NCBI GenBank assembly: GCA_012727425.1
Contig: JAAYHQ010000003.1
Span: 1-64,000, forward strand
Reading direction: 5' to 3'
Length of the DNA: 64,000 nt
Source of the DNA: Bacillota bacterium
Lineage (GTDB): Bacteria > Bacillota > UBA4882 > UBA10575
Shown: piece by piece, positions 2,307-10,883 of the stretch
How the letters are laid out: every line of letters begins with the position of its first letter
Numbering within the stretch: position 1 is the stretch's first letter
Program-made: the position numbers and the translations under genes
The notes under the pieces: generated by a model
Told to the model about the DNA's origin: nothing
Database searches by the model: none
What the model saw: only the letters and a program-made list of their open reading frames with translations

Positions 2307-3509
2307 ATGATGTCCTATAATTTCGACCAGATCATCGACCGTCAACAGACGAATAACGAAAAATGGGACCAACGGACGAAAATTTTCGGCACCGCTGATC
2401 TCCTCCCCTTGTGGGTGGCGGATATGGATTTTGCGGTTCCCCCGTGTGTGACCACAGCCTTGGCGGAACGGATCCAGCATCCGATTTACGGCTATACCTT
2501 CCCCCCACCCCAGTTTTACCAAGCGCTCAGCGACTGGCTGGCCGCACGACACCAATGGACCATTGAACAAGAATGGACGGTGGTCACCCCCGGGGTTGTG
2601 CCGGCGCTGGCTCTGTCGGTTCTGGCCTTTACCCAGCCGGGCGAGGGCGTTATTATCCAACCCCCCGTTTACGGCCCCTTCTTTCGTGTCGTCGAGAAAA
2701 ACCAACGGCGATTGGTGCTTAACCCATTAAAGGAAGAGAACGGCCGTTACCTCATGGACTTTGACCATTTGGAAACCGTGGTTGATCCCGGTGTAAAAAT
2801 GATGATTTTGTGCAGCCCTCATAATCCGGGCGGACGGGTCTGGACCAGAGAAGAACTGGAGCGGCTGGGTGAATTCTGCCAACGCCATGGGCTCATCCTT
2901 GTTTCCGACGAGATCCACGCCGATTTGGTCTATCCCAACTATAAACACACCCCCATTGCGGCGCTCAACCCGGAGCTTGCCCACAATACCATTACTTGTT
3001 TTGCCCCGAGTAAGACCTTTAATCTGCCCGGGCTGACCACAGCGGTGGCGCTGATCCCCGATCCGGAAAAACGGAGACGGTTTAAACAAGTGCAATCCGC
3101 CTTGGGGATGCAGATCTATAACACGCTGGGCCTTACCGCCTTTACCGCCGCTTACCAGGGAGGTGCCGCGTGGTTGGACGCGCTGATCCGGTATCTCCAG
3201 GGTAACCTCGACTTTCTCATGGCCTTTTTCGCCGAACGGATTCCCGCCATCAAACCTATGCCGCCGGAGGGAACCTACCTAGTTTGGCTCGACTGCCGCC
3301 GCTTACCCCTGACGCCGGAGGAACTGAAAGCCTTCTTTATTCACGAAGCCAAAGTCGGCCTGAACGACGGGCGCAGTTACGGCCCGGGGGGAGAAGGTTT
3401 CCACCGGATCAACATCGCCTGTCCCCGGCCGCTCCTCACGGAAGCCCTCCACCGGATTGAACGAGCCGTCGGCAAACTACCGTTGGCCAAGGATGCTTCT
3501 GCCCGCTAA
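2307..3509 (+). CDS. PatB/MalY-family PLP-dependent C-S lyase (cystathionine beta-lyase type)
   Basis: Fold-type I aminotransferase-like protein of 400 residues. Family features include LPLWVADMDFAVPP near residue 33, the substrate and cofactor region CSPHNPGGRVW, VSDEIHADL, and the PLP lysine K236 in the motif APSKTFNLPG. PatB/MalY enzymes cleave cystathionine or cysteine conjugates to homocysteine or thiols, pyruvate and ammonia, in the cytoplasm. An AGGAGG ribosome site lies 5 bases before the ATG at 2307. It sits beside the sulfur module at 3627-7795 but is transcribed separately and ends at its own terminator. Some homologues are transaminases, so the substrate is an inference. Confidence 0.88.
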   Translation: MMSYNFDQIIDRQQTNNEKWDQRTKIFGTADLLPLWVADMDFAVPPCVTTALAERIQHPIYGYTFPPPQFYQALSDWLAARHQWTIEQEWTVVTPGVVPALALSVLAFTQPGEGVIIQPPVYGPFFRVVEKNQRRLVLNPLKEENGRYLMDFDHLETVVDPGVKMMILCSPHNPGGRVWTREELERLGEFCQRHGLILVSDEIHADLVYPNYKHTPIAALNPELAHNTITCFAPSKTFNLPGLTTAVALIPDPEKRRRFKQVQSALGMQIYNTLGLTAFTAAYQGGAAWLDALIRYLQGNLDFLMAFFAERIPAIKPMPPEGTYLVWLDCRRLPLTPEELKAFFIHEAKVGLNDGRSYGPGGEGFHRINIACPRPLLTEALHRIERAVGKLPLAKDASAR

Positions 3510-4919: not shown

Positions 4920-5453
4920 TTACATAAAGTATTTGACTAATAACTTGCTACCAATCCAGGCCCCCACAAAGATGAAGATCGCATAAACCCAGCCGTGCAG
5001 GGAGAAAGAAGCAACGGCGCTAAAAAAAGCCCCAATATTACAGCCAAAAGCGATCCTGGTTCCATAGCCCATGAGGAGTCCACCGAGCATGGCAGCAATT
5101 ACCTGGCGGACGGATTTAATCTTTCTGATTTTAAACTGTGAAGCGGCTAATGAAGCCATAAAGGCACCAACAATAATCCCCAGGTTCATTAAGGAACCAC
5201 CATGACTGAAAAAGGGCGTCTCCAAAGCGCGAAGTCTTGCCGGATCACTGTAGTAAACCCAGTTTTGCAACTGCCCGCCAACCGCTTTATAGATCTTCGA
5301 CCCCCAGTTGAGTAAGGTCCCGGAGATCCCCCACGCACTTCCGGTCACAATGAAAAGACTAATATTCAAAAGCGCCAGCAAGACGGCACCCACCGTATAA
5401 GGCCAGGCCTCCTTGACAACGGCTTTGAAATATTTATTCTTCTCCAGTTTCAT
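4920..5453 (-). CDS. YeeE/YedE-family membrane protein, C-terminal-half type
   Basis: A 177-residue integral membrane protein with about five hydrophobic segments. Its conserved core is MLGGLLMGYGTRIAFGCNIG followed by FFSAVASFSLHGW, which matches the second half of YeeE/TsuA thiosulfate-uptake channels. The cysteine in FGCNIG corresponds in position to the last of the conserved channel cysteines. On its own it lacks the first half; the gene at 5744-6412 supplies that half. A TusA-like gene lies between them with a 9-base gap here. The predicted role is half of a sulfur-compound channel in the cytoplasmic membrane; selenium-related YedE is an alternative. Confidence 0.82.
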   Translation of the reverse strand: MKLEKNKYFKAVVKEAWPYTVGAVLLALLNISLFIVTGSAWGISGTLLNWGSKIYKAVGGQLQNWVYYSDPARLRALETPFFSHGGSLMNLGIIVGAFMASLAASQFKIRKIKSVRQVIAAMLGGLLMGYGTRIAFGCNIGAFFSAVASFSLHGWVYAIFIFVGAWIGSKLLVKYFM

Positions 5454-5462
5454 GGTTCTCCC

Positions 5463-5690
5463 TCACTTTGCTTTTTCAATATAAATGTCCCACTCACCCT
5501 CACCAATCTCTTCGATCTCCACGTTGTGCCCTTCTTTACGGGCCCACTCCGGTACGTTCTTCATGGCACAACTATGGTCGACCTCGACGATTAAAATGTC
5601 CCCCACCTGTAATTCGGCCATTTTTTTCTGGGTTTTCAAAAGAGGCACCGGACAAGCCTCCCCTAAGCAATCCAAACGATATTCAGCCAC
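5463..5690 (-). CDS. TusA/YeeD-like sulfur carrier protein
   Basis: A 75-residue protein of the TusA fold with the signature CLGEACPVPLLKTQKKM (C8 and C13). The first cysteine of CPxP-type proteins carries sulfur as persulfide. The second region, VDHSCAMKNVPEWARKEGH, is typical of the YeeD/YedF subgroup that accompanies YeeE-type channels. It lies between the two channel-half genes, which supports a role in receiving thiosulfate or persulfide sulfur at the inner face of the membrane. In E. coli the channel YeeE works with YeeD; applying that here is inference from gene order. Confidence 0.88.
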   Translation of the reverse strand: MAEYRLDCLGEACPVPLLKTQKKMAELQVGDILIVEVDHSCAMKNVPEWARKEGHNVEIEEIGEGEWDIYIEKAK

Positions 5691-5743
5691 GCTTCAACAC
5701 TCCTTCGTTTTTTTCTTCCTGCCTTAGGCAACAGGTAATCCAG

Positions 5744-6412
5744 TCAACCTTTATTGCGGTTACCCCATTTATCCGCAACAATATACAAGATGCCAAGCAC
5801 CGCCAGTTGCAGGGTAATCGCCAACGGCCAGCCGAGAACGGAAGGTAAGTGGACCCGCGACGCGCCGTCAAAGAAGAGCCGCTCCCAAAAACCCCAGTGC
5901 CGGACACCCAAAACGGTCCCGGCGACAAAAAAGACCAAAGTGAGCCATTGCATCACAAAACCTTCACCGACCCGCATCAAGGTGCCGGAAGCACATCCCC
6001 CCGCAATGACCATCCCGATCCCGAACATGACGGCACCGATCGCCACATGCCAGCCCACCGGGCTAATCGAACCGGCAATGGCTCCGCCTTTACTGACGGC
6101 GGCATACTGCACGGCACCGAAACCAACGGTCGCAACGGCTACGGCAATGATAACCGCCTTGGTTAATGAGGTGCTACCTGTTAAAATCGGATCCCGAAAG
6201 GCTGCAGTAAAACAGAACCGCGATTTTTGCAGAACAACCCCGAAACAAATCCCAAAAAGCCAAGAGATGGCCAGACCCGCTGATTTCCCGGCCAAATAAT
6301 AGGCCATGAAAATCACGCCCAAAAGCACGACGAAGGCCAGCGGAAGTTGATTTCTCCGCTTCTTAGCTGGCCGTACCATAGCCCGGTTAGTTACTGCTGT
6401 CTTTGTTTCCAC
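5744..6412 (-). CDS. YeeE/YedE-family membrane protein, N-terminal-half type
   Basis: About 222 residues with roughly five membrane segments. It carries the motifs QKSRFCFTAAFRD and VIAGGCASGTLMRVGEG, which correspond to the first two conserved cysteine regions of YeeE/TsuA channels. Together with the gene at 4920-5453 it would complete one channel. I chose GTG at 6412 because AAGGAGGAG lies 6 bases upstream; an ATG at 6460 with a weaker GGAGA site would add 16 residues. It is the first gene of a minus-strand run with the TusA-like, second channel-half and flavoprotein genes, divergent from a LysR regulator. Confidence 0.82.
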   Translation of the reverse strand: METKTAVTNRAMVRPAKKRRNQLPLAFVVLLGVIFMAYYLAGKSAGLAISWLFGICFGVVLQKSRFCFTAAFRDPILTGSTSLTKAVIIAVAVATVGFGAVQYAAVSKGGAIAGSISPVGWHVAIGAVMFGIGMVIAGGCASGTLMRVGEGFVMQWLTLVFFVAGTVLGVRHWGFWERLFFDGASRVHLPSVLGWPLAITLQLAVLGILYIVADKWGNRNKG

Positions 6413-6744: not shown

Positions 6745-7620
6745 ATGAATATTTTTCAGATGAAGACTTTTATTGAAATTGCGCAAGCCGCCAGTATTTC
6801 AAAAGCCGCCCAACACCTTCACCTTACCCAACCGGCGGTCAGCCAGCAACTACAAGCCCTTGAAAAAAGTTTGGGTTTTCAGTTGCTAACCCGGAGTAAC
6901 AAAGGGGTTGAATTAACCGAATACGGAAATATTTTTTACTCGTATGCCCAGAGTTTTATCACCCTCTGGGAAAATCTCCAGAATGACCTGGCGGCGGTTG
7001 ACGGCAAGCATTCCTCCCTCCAAATTGGTACTTGTGCCGCCATTGGACAATACGCCCTGCCCTGCGCCTTATACCTCTTCAAACAAAAATACCCCCATCT
7101 TAGCGTCTCTGTCCAGAGCTTTCCCTCAGAAGAGACTATCCAGCGCTTAAGGGAGCATTCGATTCAGATCGGGTTTATTCAGGACAACTATGATCTGAAA
7201 GATTTAAACAGTTATCCGGTGTTAAAAAGTAATTTCGTCCTGGTCACACCACCGGCCACGACAGTAGATACCATCGACCTCTCCGCCCTCCACACCATCC
7301 CGTTAATCCTGAGCCCGGAAAACTCCGATCTGAAAAGAGCTCTATCGGCCGCCATGGCCCAATATGGCTTTGATCTTGATCTGCTCACGCCCATCCTTGA
7401 ACTGGACGGTATTGAAAGCATCAAGTCATCGGTCCGCGCCGGTCACGGCAGCTCTTTCCTGCCTTACTTCACCGTAAAAAAGGAACTGTTTTCCAGAGAA
7501 CTAAAGGAAGTTAAGTTAAACGGCGTGACTTTAGAAACTTCCTTTGTCATGGTGTGGCGTAAAGCAGAAAAGCAAACGGAGATTTCCGCACCTCCCAGAT
7601 CCCATTGGCCACTTCATTGA
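6745..7620 (+). CDS. LysR-family transcriptional regulator of the sulfur module
   Basis: About 291 residues. The N-terminal winged helix-turn-helix is clear (FIEIAQAASISKAAQHLHLT, then QPAVSQQLQALEKSLGFQLL), followed by a type 2 periplasmic-binding-like effector domain from about residue 90 (LQIGTCAAIGQYALP). ATG at 6745 is preferred over TTG at 6739 because AAGGAG at 6731-6736 is 8 bases before it. It is divergent from the YeeE-type genes, the usual arrangement for a LysR protein that controls its neighbour. Similarity to CysL/CbbR-type regulators suggests a sulfur metabolite as effector, which is inference. Its 3' end overlaps the opposing TusA-like gene by 74 bases. Confidence 0.88.
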   Translation: MNIFQMKTFIEIAQAASISKAAQHLHLTQPAVSQQLQALEKSLGFQLLTRSNKGVELTEYGNIFYSYAQSFITLWENLQNDLAAVDGKHSSLQIGTCAAIGQYALPCALYLFKQKYPHLSVSVQSFPSEETIQRLREHSIQIGFIQDNYDLKDLNSYPVLKSNFVLVTPPATTVDTIDLSALHTIPLILSPENSDLKRALSAAMAQYGFDLDLLTPILELDGIESIKSSVRAGHGSSFLPYFTVKKELFSRELKEVKLNGVTLETSFVMVWRKAEKQTEISAPPRSHWPLH

Positions 7621-7795
7621 CTGCGCGCTGATAGCTCTCTTCCGGTACCTGTTCCAAAATATTACCCACGGCACAACTATGATCCACCAAGACCTTCAGT
7701 TCTTCTCCAGCTTTTAAGTTTCTGAGCAAAGAACGTACTTTAAGCGAAGGAACCGGACAGACTTCACCCATACAATTAATCTCCAAAGCAACCAC
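7547..7795 (-). CDS. Second TusA-like sulfur carrier protein
   Basis: An 82-residue TusA-fold protein with CMGEVCPVPSLKVRSLL near the N-terminus and a VDHSCAVGN segment like the YeeD/YedF subgroup. It begins with GTG at 7795, without a strong ribosome site (only a G-run). It is the last gene of the 2-oxoacid oxidoreductase run, 23 bases after the ferredoxin subunit gene. Its end overlaps the end of the LysR gene by 74 bases on the opposite strand, so the two transcripts are complementary. It probably shares the sulfur-relay role of the carrier at 5463-5690; a link to the oxidoreductase is only positional. Confidence 0.82.
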   Translation of the reverse strand: MVALEINCMGEVCPVPSLKVRSLLRNLKAGEELKVLVDHSCAVGNILEQVPEESYQRAVNEVANGIWEVRKSPFAFLLYATP

Positions 7796-7818
7796 CCCCA
7801 GTTTAAGTTTGACGGGGT

Positions 7819-8136
7819 TTATCTCCCTTTGTCAAGACCCGCTTCCACGACCACACTAATCGCCGCGTCCGGACAGTAGTCGGCACAGATCTTGCAGGTC
7901 ATGCACCCGGCGGCCTCCACGGTCACCCGGTTGGTGCCGTAGGCCCCCATTTCGGAAGACCACCGAATCACCCCGGTCGGACACCGTTCGATACAGAGGC
8001 CACAACCCTTACACAACTGGGGAAAAATGGTCCACGAACCCCGGGCCGTCGTCCACCGCTCCCCGGTCAACTGCTGTTCTTGCCTGTCCAAGGCGAACCG
8101 CTCCCCCTTTTCCCGAGGCTTGTTTTCCACCGTCAC
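7819..8136 (-). CDS. korD: 2-oxoacid:ferredoxin oxidoreductase, delta (2x4Fe-4S ferredoxin) subunit
   Basis: A 105-residue ferredoxin-like subunit with two complete 4Fe-4S ligand sets: CKGCGLCIERCP near residue 40 and CMTCKICADYCP near residue 78. A short basic N-terminal extension precedes the iron-sulfur domain. In KorABCD/PorABCD enzymes this subunit passes electrons from the thiamine site to external ferredoxin. It overlaps the gamma gene by 4 bases, showing tight translational coupling. The symbol follows the domain order of the operon; the oxoacid substrate is not proven. Confidence 0.88.
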   Translation of the reverse strand: MTVENKPREKGERFALDRQEQQLTGERWTTARGSWTIFPQLCKGCGLCIERCPTGVIRWSSEMGAYGTNRVTVEAAGCMTCKICADYCPDAAISVVVEAGLDKGR

Positions 8137-8810
8137 TGCTGTCCCTCCGTTTCGATCATCGTTAACCCTTTCGCCAACGCCTGATAATTCAATGCTTCCA
8201 GCTCCGGGTTTTCCCGGAATTTGGCCCCGAATTTTTTGGCGATTGCTTCTTTGACCCCCGCCGGTGGCAATACCTTGATCAACTTTGTAATTGCGCCCAA
8301 GACAATAATGTTAAACACCCGCGGTGTCAGCTCCGCCTTGGCGGTTTGCGCCGCCCGGATCCCAACGGGGCGGATTGACGGGTCGACGGGCGGTGAGGAC
8401 GCCGGTGCCGCTGCGGCCCCCACCATCTTGGCGAACCCCTCGGGGGCGACGGTCTCGTAGCCCTGGATCCCGACCGCCTGGTCGTCGATCACCGGCGCTG
8501 CCAGTGCCGACTCCTCGTAAAGATAGATCGTCCCCGGTTTTATATAACCTTTGGTCCGTTCGGCGGCGCGTTTGCTTAAAACAGCCAGCAAATCAGCGTA
8601 TAAAAATTTGGGGGCCCCGATCGCCTCCTCGGCAATCTGGACATACGCCACAGAAACCCCGCCCCGCTGCTCCACGCCGAAGTTGGGGATATAGAGGGCT
8701 TGTTTGCCTGCTTGAAAAGCCGCTTCCGCCAAGAGCTCACCAATGCTCTGCACCCCCTGGCCCCCTTCCCCGGCAACAATAATCTTCAGCACTCTTTGCT
8801 CATCCATCAT
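8133..8810 (-). CDS. korC: 2-oxoacid:ferredoxin oxidoreductase, gamma subunit
   Basis: A 225-residue gamma-type subunit. It starts with the family motif VAGEGGQGVQSIGELLAEAA and contains FGVEQRGGVSVAYVQI, both typical of the KorC/PorG domain. This domain binds next to the alpha and beta subunits and shapes the CoA and cofactor site. The gene overlaps the delta gene by 4 bases and the beta gene by 1 base. Residues about 135-160 form an Ala/Pro-rich insert (AAAAPASSPPVDPS) that looks like a loop or linker. Confidence 0.88.
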   Translation of the reverse strand: MMDEQRVLKIIVAGEGGQGVQSIGELLAEAAFQAGKQALYIPNFGVEQRGGVSVAYVQIAEEAIGAPKFLYADLLAVLSKRAAERTKGYIKPGTIYLYEESALAAPVIDDQAVGIQGYETVAPEGFAKMVGAAAAPASSPPVDPSIRPVGIRAAQTAKAELTPRVFNIIVLGAITKLIKVLPPAGVKEAIAKKFGAKFRENPELEALNYQALAKGLTMIETEGQQ

Positions 8811-9598
8811 TACCCCTCCCCTCCAGCCACCGGTTCCGGAACCCGAAGTTCGCCCACTTTAAAGTACCGGGCCATCTCGCCCCGGAGAAAGGCCCAAGTC
8901 GCTTTGGCATCGGTCCGCCAGTTGGTGGGGCACGTCGATAATACCTCCACAAAGGAGAAGCCCCGGCCTTCCATCTGGTTACGGAGAGCTTTCTTCAGAA
9001 ACTCCTTTAGTTGCTGGTATTCCCCGACCGTCCCCCGGGCCACATAGGCTCCGTCGGCCGCGATCGCCGCCACCAGTTCCGGTCCTTGCATTGGAGCACC
9101 GGTTTTCCTTACTTCCCGTCCGTACGGAGTGGTTCCGGTCTTTTGTCCCGGTAAAGTTGTCGGCGCCAACTGCCCCCCGGTCATGGCGTACAAGGTATTG
9201 TTGGCCAAAATGGCGGTGATCTGGTCTCCCCGTTGGGCGGCGTTGACCAAATGCTGGGCCCCGATGGCATAACCCCCGCCGTCACCCATATAAGCGATGG
9301 CGATCGTCTCCGGCCGGGCTCTTTTCGCCCCAACCACCACCGGAATAGTCCGCCCATGGTGGGTCTGGACACTGTCAAAGTTAAAAAAATCCCAGCTCAA
9401 CAGGGAGCATCCGATATCGCAACCGTACAGAACCCGGTCCAAAATCCCCAACTCACCAACGGCTTCCCCCAAAGCTTTGAGGGCAATGCCATGGCCACAC
9501 CCGGGACAAAAACGGTGAGGCTTGGTCTCTTTCCGCCAGGAAAGGGGCATGTTCCGGTTTTCTGCCGGTCCCCGGACCACCGTGCGCTTTTCATCCAC
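8810..9598 (-). CDS. korB: 2-oxoacid:ferredoxin oxidoreductase, beta (thiamine diphosphate) subunit
   Basis: A 262-residue subunit. CPGCGHGIALKALGEA near residue 31 and the thiamine diphosphate/Mg motif GDGGGYAIGAQHLVNAAQRG, ending with LANN, identify the beta subunit that binds the cofactor and decarboxylates the 2-oxoacid. NNTLYAMTGGQLAPTT is a well-conserved KorB segment. Upstream it overlaps the alpha gene by 8 bases. KorB-type sequences in separate alpha/beta/gamma/delta operons usually act on 2-oxoglutarate or branched-chain oxoacids; a choice between them is not possible from motifs. Confidence 0.9.
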   Translation of the reverse strand: MDEKRTVVRGPAENRNMPLSWRKETKPHRFCPGCGHGIALKALGEAVGELGILDRVLYGCDIGCSLLSWDFFNFDSVQTHHGRTIPVVVGAKRARPETIAIAYMGDGGGYAIGAQHLVNAAQRGDQITAILANNTLYAMTGGQLAPTTLPGQKTGTTPYGREVRKTGAPMQGPELVAAIAADGAYVARGTVGEYQQLKEFLKKALRNQMEGRGFSFVEVLSTCPTNWRTDAKATWAFLRGEMARYFKVGELRVPEPVAGGEG

Positions 9599-10667
9599 CA
9601 GGCCGCACCTCCTTCGGGGTCCGCGCGGTCACGGCCGCCATGATCTCCTCCGCCGTAATCCCGACCCCCGGTTTTAACAAAGTGTCGATCGCGTTGGTAA
9701 ACCCATAGAGCTCCGCTTTAACCAGCGCGAGCAACTGCCCGTAGGCCGATTCCACCACTAAGAGGCGGAGGTTGGGATTGGCGGCCACCGCTTCCCGCAA
9801 AGCCGCCCCCGGAAAAGGCCGGACGGTGATCGGACGGAAATAACCGACCTTGTATCCTTGCCGGTTCAGCATCGCACAGGCCTGTTTCGCCGCCCGGGCC
9901 ACAATCCCGTGGGCGACTAATAAAACCTCGGTCTCCGGACCAACCTCCACCTCCCACTCAACCACCTCCGGCGTCAACCGGTCATAAGCAGCCAACTGCG
10001 CCATGAGGCGGTCGTACAACTCTTCTTCAATATTAAAGGTGTTCCGCAGGTGCACCGGGTCCCGGTCCAAGGCCGGAATTCCCGGCCGCCGGACCAGCGG
10101 TTCGGCCGGCGTCAGTGTCCATCCGCGCGCCTCGGGCCGGAACAACGTGACCGCCTCCCGCATCTTTGCCTGGTACCCGTCCCCCAGGACAAAGGTGGGG
10201 AAGCGGTACTCCCAAGCCCGGTTAAACGCCTTAATTGTATATTCGAACAGTTCCTGGTGGAAAGCGGTGGAATAAACGATCCGCAGCCCTTCCCCGTTCC
10301 CTCCGGCGGTCGTCAAGCGCAACTCCTGCTGGGAATAGATGACGGTCGCTGTCGACGGACCGCCCCGCTGCTGGATGACCCAGACCCCCGGGATCCGCAT
10401 CATCTCCGCCATGGCGATCGGTTCTTGCATCAGAATATTGCCCGGTCCGGCCGTCGCACAGAAAGTTTTCTTGCCGACCAAAGCGCCGCCCAGCATCGCA
10501 AAACCGGCCGCCATTTCGTCCTCCGTCTGAAGAAACCCCCGCCCGAAATGGGGGGCCAGACGGGCCCAATAATGCATAATCTCATTTTGGGGCGTGATCG
10601 GATAACCATACATAAAATCAGCCCCCGCGACCAGTGCCGCCCATGCCACCACCTCATTGCCGGTCAT
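9591..10667 (-). CDS. korA: 2-oxoacid:ferredoxin oxidoreductase, alpha subunit
   Basis: About 358 residues from ATG at 10667. The start of the domain, MTGNEVVAWAALVAGADFMY followed by GYPITPQNEI, is the classic KorA N-terminus. Later come TEDEMAAGFAMLGGALVG and QQRGGPSTATVIYSQQEL, which contact the thiamine diphosphate in the beta subunit. GGAG lies 4 bases and AAAGGAG about 11 bases before this ATG. The frame stays open upstream to about 10820 with GTG and TTG codons, so a longer form of up to 51 more residues cannot be excluded. It overlaps korB by 8 bases. Confidence 0.85.
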   Translation of the reverse strand: MTGNEVVAWAALVAGADFMYGYPITPQNEIMHYWARLAPHFGRGFLQTEDEMAAGFAMLGGALVGKKTFCATAGPGNILMQEPIAMAEMMRIPGVWVIQQRGGPSTATVIYSQQELRLTTAGGNGEGLRIVYSTAFHQELFEYTIKAFNRAWEYRFPTFVLGDGYQAKMREAVTLFRPEARGWTLTPAEPLVRRPGIPALDRDPVHLRNTFNIEEELYDRLMAQLAAYDRLTPEVVEWEVEVGPETEVLLVAHGIVARAAKQACAMLNRQGYKVGYFRPITVRPFPGAALREAVAANPNLRLLVVESAYGQLLALVKAELYGFTNAIDTLLKPGVGITAEEIMAAVTARTPKEVRPGG

Positions 10668-10883
10668 AAAACTCCGTTGCTCCTTTCGGAGCAGAGCCTC
10701 ATATTCCCCCGTCAGTTGTGTCTGCTTCTTAATTGCCCTTCCCCACCTTTCCAAGATAGTCACCACCCCGGCAGGCTGAAGCAGCGCCTTGTCCGGCCTG
10801 CGGCGATGGCTGCCTGCCAAATCCGGAAGTTAACGACCAACAATCCGGCAAGGCGCACCCCTCTTCCACCGCGATCCCCTTTT

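Follow-up and report, generated by a model that had tools for sequence, protein, structure and literature searches.

The window analysed here, the whole 64,000-nucleotide stretch at the start of a Bacillota contig, carries an operon on its minus strand that reads, 5' to 3', A, TusA, B and a thioredoxin-reductase-like flavoprotein. Gene A (6460-5744, minus strand, start ATG; PF04143) encodes the N-half subunit of a YeeE-family protein, 238 aa long. It is followed by the gene of a TusA-like sulfur carrier of 75 aa (5690-5463, minus strand, start GTG; PF01206), which has a CPVP motif and a second conserved cysteine, Cys41. Gene B (5453-4920, minus strand, start ATG; PF04143) encodes the C-half subunit, 177 aa long. 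The last gene (4883-3627, minus strand; TIGR01292) specifies a flavoprotein of 418 aa, with a CATC motif and a degenerate C-terminal thioredoxin-like domain. Shine-Dalgarno-like sites precede the operon genes, that of A being AGAGGAG. A gene for a LysR-type regulator is divergent from the operon (6745-7620, plus strand). A second TusA-like gene, also with a CPVP motif, lies nearby (7786-7547, minus strand; PF01206, E 4.5e-15).

A first-pass annotation of this DNA had described a split YeeE-family pair with a TusA-like gene between the halves, the upstream gene carrying KSRFCF and AGGCASGTLMRVGEG and the downstream gene FGCNIG. Rereading of the window DNA confirmed the arrangement, and both coordinates and motifs were right. 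The flavoprotein gene, the LysR gene and the second TusA gene were absent from that annotation. A literature search, judged on titles and abstracts, found no description of this exact operon.

Two halves of one YeeE-family protein

Both A and B score above the gathering cut-off (27 bits) of the Pfam profile Sulf_transp (PF04143), which places them in the YeeE/YedE superfamily. A matches positions 1-152 of the 310 of the profile (E = 3.6e-31, 109.3 bits), and B matches positions 164-310 (E = 1.7e-37, 130.0 bits). At these E-values, and with the matches on different parts of the profile, the pair is neither a chance resemblance nor one half present twice. In a profile search of the entire genome of the window, A and B were the only matches to PF04143. 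Alignment to StTsuA (6leo) gives the same assignment. A aligns to residues 6-118, with 62 bits for the N half against 16 bits for the C half, and B to residues 243-324, with 50 bits for the C half against 7 bits for the N half. The earlier proposal that a YeeE channel is divided between two genes thus stands, and the case in which both proteins represent the same half is clearly excluded. Residues 1-82 of B have no TsuA match detectable by sequence alignment. Weak matches of A and B to the opposite halves indicate that the YeeE halves are related by internal duplication. Single-chain structure models of the A and B pair were of modest confidence (pLDDT 75.8 and 78.6). In a fold search of the PDB, the A model found 6leo with a probability of 1.00 but an E of 0.049, which is weak; the B model, itself of modest confidence, found no YeeE match and nothing else of use. 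The fold comparison being weak, it is the sequence alignment that carries the argument for the half assignment.

The three cysteines along which TsuA passes thiosulfate, invoked in the first-pass annotation, can be placed in the two halves. Counted along the 6leo alignments, C22, C91 and C293 of StTsuA correspond to A-C83 (codon TGT, 6212..6214), A-C156 (TGT, 5993..5995) and B-C138 (TGT, 5040..5042), all read from the minus strand. In alignments of 22-23 split relatives all three are invariant, the two in A being so in 22 split A proteins. At the A-C156 position there is a cysteine codon in all 195 aligned A-domain rows, duplicates included.

Split, fused and permuted relatives

The halves occur in three arrangements in other genomes. 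Loci were collected by similarity and family searches, and contain 65 distinct split pairs, all A then B, 64 pairs fused as A-B and 12 fused as B-A; given this mode of collection, the counts are not frequencies. Of the 65 distinct split pairs, 57 have a TusA gene between the halves and 8 do not. The A-TusA-B layout is thus widespread in related bacteria. In one locus (L122, 4415-4939) a tandem pair of TusA genes is found between A and B, and a second TusA gene near the split module, as at 7786-7547 in the window, recurs in many relatives. Open frames of 460-630 aa spanning both halves had suggested A-TusA-B as a single protein; this candidate was dropped, as the DNA has separate A, TusA and B reading frames. 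One-chain relatives with A then B are about 400 aa long, and E. coli TsuA and a one-chain Bacillus relative have this order too. E. coli YedE is circularly permuted, with the B half first: the A model matches residues 188-386 and the B model residues 5-165. The permuted order is visible in the NCBIfam match coordinates as well. The halves can thus be separate, fused or circularly permuted, as would be expected of two modules that come together side by side.

A and B have also diverged together. The distances among A proteins mirror those among B proteins with r = 0.92, a value that includes shared species history, and none of 2000 permutations gave a correlation as high. The split proteins group together in the B tree; the A tree does not resolve a single group of them.

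Splitting of a YeeE channel is already known in kind. In PmpA/PmpB of Serratia and YedE1/YedE2 of Cupriavidus and Sinorhizobium, N-half and C-half YeeE-family genes are adjacent, as they are close together here, and each half has one conserved cysteine, which is essential (PMC10812762, PMC11582611). For YedE1E2, both halves and their conserved cysteines are needed for uptake of zero-valent sulfur (PMC10812762), and for PmpA-PmpB a heterodimer has already been proposed (PMC11582611). The present pair differs from these systems in several respects. Their halves are about 130 aa long, with four helices and one conserved cysteine each, whereas A and B have 238 and 177 aa, A has an extra first cysteine (C83), and a TusA gene lies between the two genes.

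That the two half proteins form one channel, as the first-pass annotation had proposed, is strongly implied by the one-chain versions in both orders, the co-evolution of A and B and the published work on YedE1E2 and PmpAB. On the same grounds, namely one-chain versions, mirrored trees and published split pairs, A and B very likely assemble as a heterodimer in the membrane. They could instead be two independent homo-oligomeric channels, related but with separate substrates and sharing only an operon. Each half is predicted to have several membrane-length helices, and the YeeE halves are related by internal duplication. However, this reading is highly improbable, given that all 65 distinct split pairs are ordered A then B, that A and B have diverged in a correlated way and that one-chain versions exist in both orders. 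No lone A or lone B is present in the genome of the window, and in the published pair YedE1 or YedE2 alone is inactive (PMC10812762). Because the channel exists in nature in split, fused and permuted versions, its assembly lends itself to direct testing.

Substrate and partner proteins

Which sulfur compound the A-B pair would carry is less clearly indicated by family assignment. YedE/FdhT is the best-scoring curated family for both proteins (A 119 bits, B 115 bits), ahead of the TsuA equivalog model NF052577 (A 77.2 bits, B 64.4 bits), and neither the YedE/FdhT cut-off of 350 nor the TsuA cut-off of 400 is reached. The channel had been called thiosulfate-type in the first-pass annotation. That label is not supported, since both halves score higher on YedE/FdhT than on TsuA and zero-valent sulfur is what the characterised split pair carries.

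A stricter form of the thiosulfate proposal is that the locus encodes a split importer fully equivalent to TsuA-TsuB (YeeE-YeeD of S. thermophila and E. coli). TsuA is of the same family, has the same three pore cysteines and has a TusA-like partner alongside; for the two there is a solved structure of a designed fusion (8k1r, 8j4c). The best curated model for the TusA-like protein of the window is indeed TsuB/YeeD (below). In T. maritima, thiosulfate raises the expression of yeeE, a gene in a cluster with dsrE/tusA genes, 42.6-fold (PMC9431562). However, TsuA, the demonstrated thiosulfate importer, is one chain of about 340 aa, not two chains. The N-terminal stretch of B lacks a detectable counterpart in it, and the TsuA scores of both halves are far under the cut-off as well as below those of YedE. 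Moreover, the split pair that was assayed carried zero-valent sulfur, and one-chain YedE3 (TsuA) did not (PMC10812762). Strict equivalence is therefore doubtful, though it is the strongest of the alternatives considered; thiosulfate as a substrate of the A-B pair is possible, in view of the induction of yeeE in Thermotoga.

The product of the middle gene is a TusA protein (Pfam PF01206, E 2e-25). Among the curated models TsuB/YeeD (NF041048) scores highest, but its 57.4 bits fall short of the cut-off of 147.5. Two cysteines, C13 in the CPVP motif and C41, are invariant in 23 TusA sequences. The CPxP motif and second cysteine of TsuB/YeeD are thus both present, a pattern that resembles E. coli YeeD (PMC11073785). 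By analogy with the TsuA-TsuB fusion (8k1r, 8j4c; PMC11073785), and in view of the gene order and the conserved TusA cysteines, we infer that the carrier docks at the inner face of the channel.

Another alternative is that A and B form a split YedE/FdhT and transport a selenium compound for selenium metabolism. The best scores of both halves point in this direction, and E. coli YedE/FdhT likewise has a TusA-type gene (yedF) adjacent. The LysR regulator comes closest, among NCBIfam models, to the selenium-metabolism-associated LysR, with 210 bits where the cut-off is 250, and B of some relatives probably contains selenocysteine, as described later. Yet E. coli YedE/FdhT is one chain with the halves in the opposite order, B then A, and not separate genes with A first, and the YedE scores of A and B are under the model cut-off. 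YedE/FdhT is also tied to selenium use, and the genome of the window, which is 95.7% complete, has neither SelD nor SelB over cut-off. Among 22 genomes with a split pair, SelD is over cut-off in 8, many of the 22 being draft MAGs of unstated completeness. Since SelD and SelB are absent over cut-off, selenium transport is unlikely in the organism of the window and was rejected as the function there.

The flavoprotein scores 340.1 bits on TIGR01292, just under the cut-off of 343.45. Of the 62 split loci for which enough sequence was available, 34 have the flavoprotein gene downstream of B and 28 lack it there. The CATC redox motif is kept, and the family has no intact CxxC in its C-terminal thioredoxin-like domain. 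In place of HRR, the usual NADPH-phosphate motif, the flavoprotein of the window has HDE, and another electron donor is therefore possible. The flavoprotein likely serves to reduce thiols around the carrier. A LysR gene adjoining A recurs in many close relatives. The conserved A-TusA-B-flavoprotein operon would make a compact, testable sulfur-import module in anaerobes.

UGA codons at the third pore position and a proposed sulfur relay

In the B genes of 10 Bacillota genomes, the codon of the conserved cysteine in GCNIG (model position 138) is TGA (loci L140, L141, L146, L147, L126, L155, L156, L173, L175 and L177). Six of the genomes are from one family and four from another, and the two families belong to different classes. 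Reading continues in frame beyond the UGA to the normal C-terminus. Where the two families have the same amino acid at codons +6 to +14 past the UGA, they always use the same codon. By comparison, the same-codon rate is roughly one third over most of the remaining length of the UGA-type genes and 34-41% for the +6 to +14 region in Cys-type genes. In 7 of 10 minimum-energy folds the frozen stretch, AGCGGCACGGCTTCGATGTCGCT, is a hairpin shortly after the UGA, at the place expected for a bacterial SECIS element. The folding energy is only moderately unusual, and in some of the sequences; support for the hairpin comes from the synonymous constraint and its position, the stretch being nearly invariant, with no covariation to count. 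SelB is over the curated cut-off in all 10 genomes.

The B genes of the 10 relatives thus combine the features expected of a bacterial selenoprotein gene, namely UGA at a conserved cysteine, read-through, a downstream hairpin region and SelB. On these grounds, the third pore cysteine is very probably selenocysteine in these relatives. A pseudogene stop or sequencing error was considered for the UGA and rejected, because 10 genomes share the UGA at the same codon, read-through is conserved and the synonymous sites are frozen. A scan of conserved cysteines in A and the flavoprotein, TusA being outside it, revealed no selenocysteine; TusA reading frames are intact where the DNA of relatives' loci was read. 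B of the window itself is of the ordinary cysteine form, with TGT at 5042-5040. In one relative (locus L158, genome G275) B is of the Cys type, and about 51 bases from the cysteine codon its gene retains a sequence almost the same as the Sec-type hairpin, possibly a remnant of a Sec-to-Cys change.

A YeeE-family selenoprotein has been listed before (WP_012471001.1; PMC13188914), with selenocysteine in the motif GUxSG. Judged by its motif, that site, GCxSG in cysteine form, would correspond to the second cysteine, in the A half (GCASG). In the relatives described here it is GCNIG, the third, in the B half. The UGA at the third pore cysteine is distinct from the listed site and is the unexpected part of the present results. 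The selenoproteome review does not list the GUNIG site (PMC13188914), and no description of it was found in a literature search that most subscription papers lay outside.

How sulfur moves through YeeE-family channels is unsettled. In structural papers a hydrogen-bond relay of thiosulfate has been proposed, and in the work on YedE1E2 persulfide transfer. Replacement of a pore cysteine by selenocysteine in nature serves as an evolutionary test of this question, and it points to a reactive nucleophile. Exchange of cysteine and selenocysteine is typical of such residues in selenoproteins.

The explanation we prefer for the operon, with a probability of roughly 75%, is an A-B heterodimeric channel of the YeeE/YedE family that relays reduced sulfur to the nested TusA. 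A and B would assemble in the membrane, and a reduced-sulfur species, either sulfane sulfur/polysulfide or thiosulfate, would enter from outside. The sulfur would be handed from A-C83 to A-C156, then to B-C138 and finally to the TusA-like carrier, which would accept it on its reactive cysteine and may depart as a persulfide or S-thiosulfonate. The flavoprotein probably acts either in keeping thiols reduced or in releasing the sulfur; sensing of supply is the probable role of the LysR regulator. Since selenium-using relatives appear to have selenocysteine there, the B-C138 position is probably a nucleophile that forms a transient covalent bond. Selenocysteine at the third pore position speaks for a transient covalent bond to sulfur at this site rather than for a relay by hydrogen bonds alone, and by analogy the same may apply to the protein of the window.

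The relay could be extended to both inner positions. Depending on lineage, selenocysteine appears at the third cysteine (B, found here) or at the second (the published A-type motif), which in a relay reading would make nucleophiles of both. Sulfur would then cross the membrane through a series of persulfide or selenenyl-sulfide bonds, not as a hydrogen-bonded ion, with the nested TusA as acceptor. We put forward this covalent chalcogen relay tentatively, at slightly less than even odds.

As to enzymes that might act downstream, an AsrC-type sulfite reductase was considered and dropped, because the genome of the window has no match to it over cut-off. Two neighbors of the operon deserve mention. 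The second TusA-like gene is the last of an operon on the minus strand (7547-10820) that resembles a four-subunit 2-oxoacid:ferredoxin oxidoreductase. On the other side, positions 2307-3509 (plus strand) encode what by eye is a PLP enzyme like MalY/PatB, of the cystathionine beta-lyase type, a possible sulfur-related neighbor.
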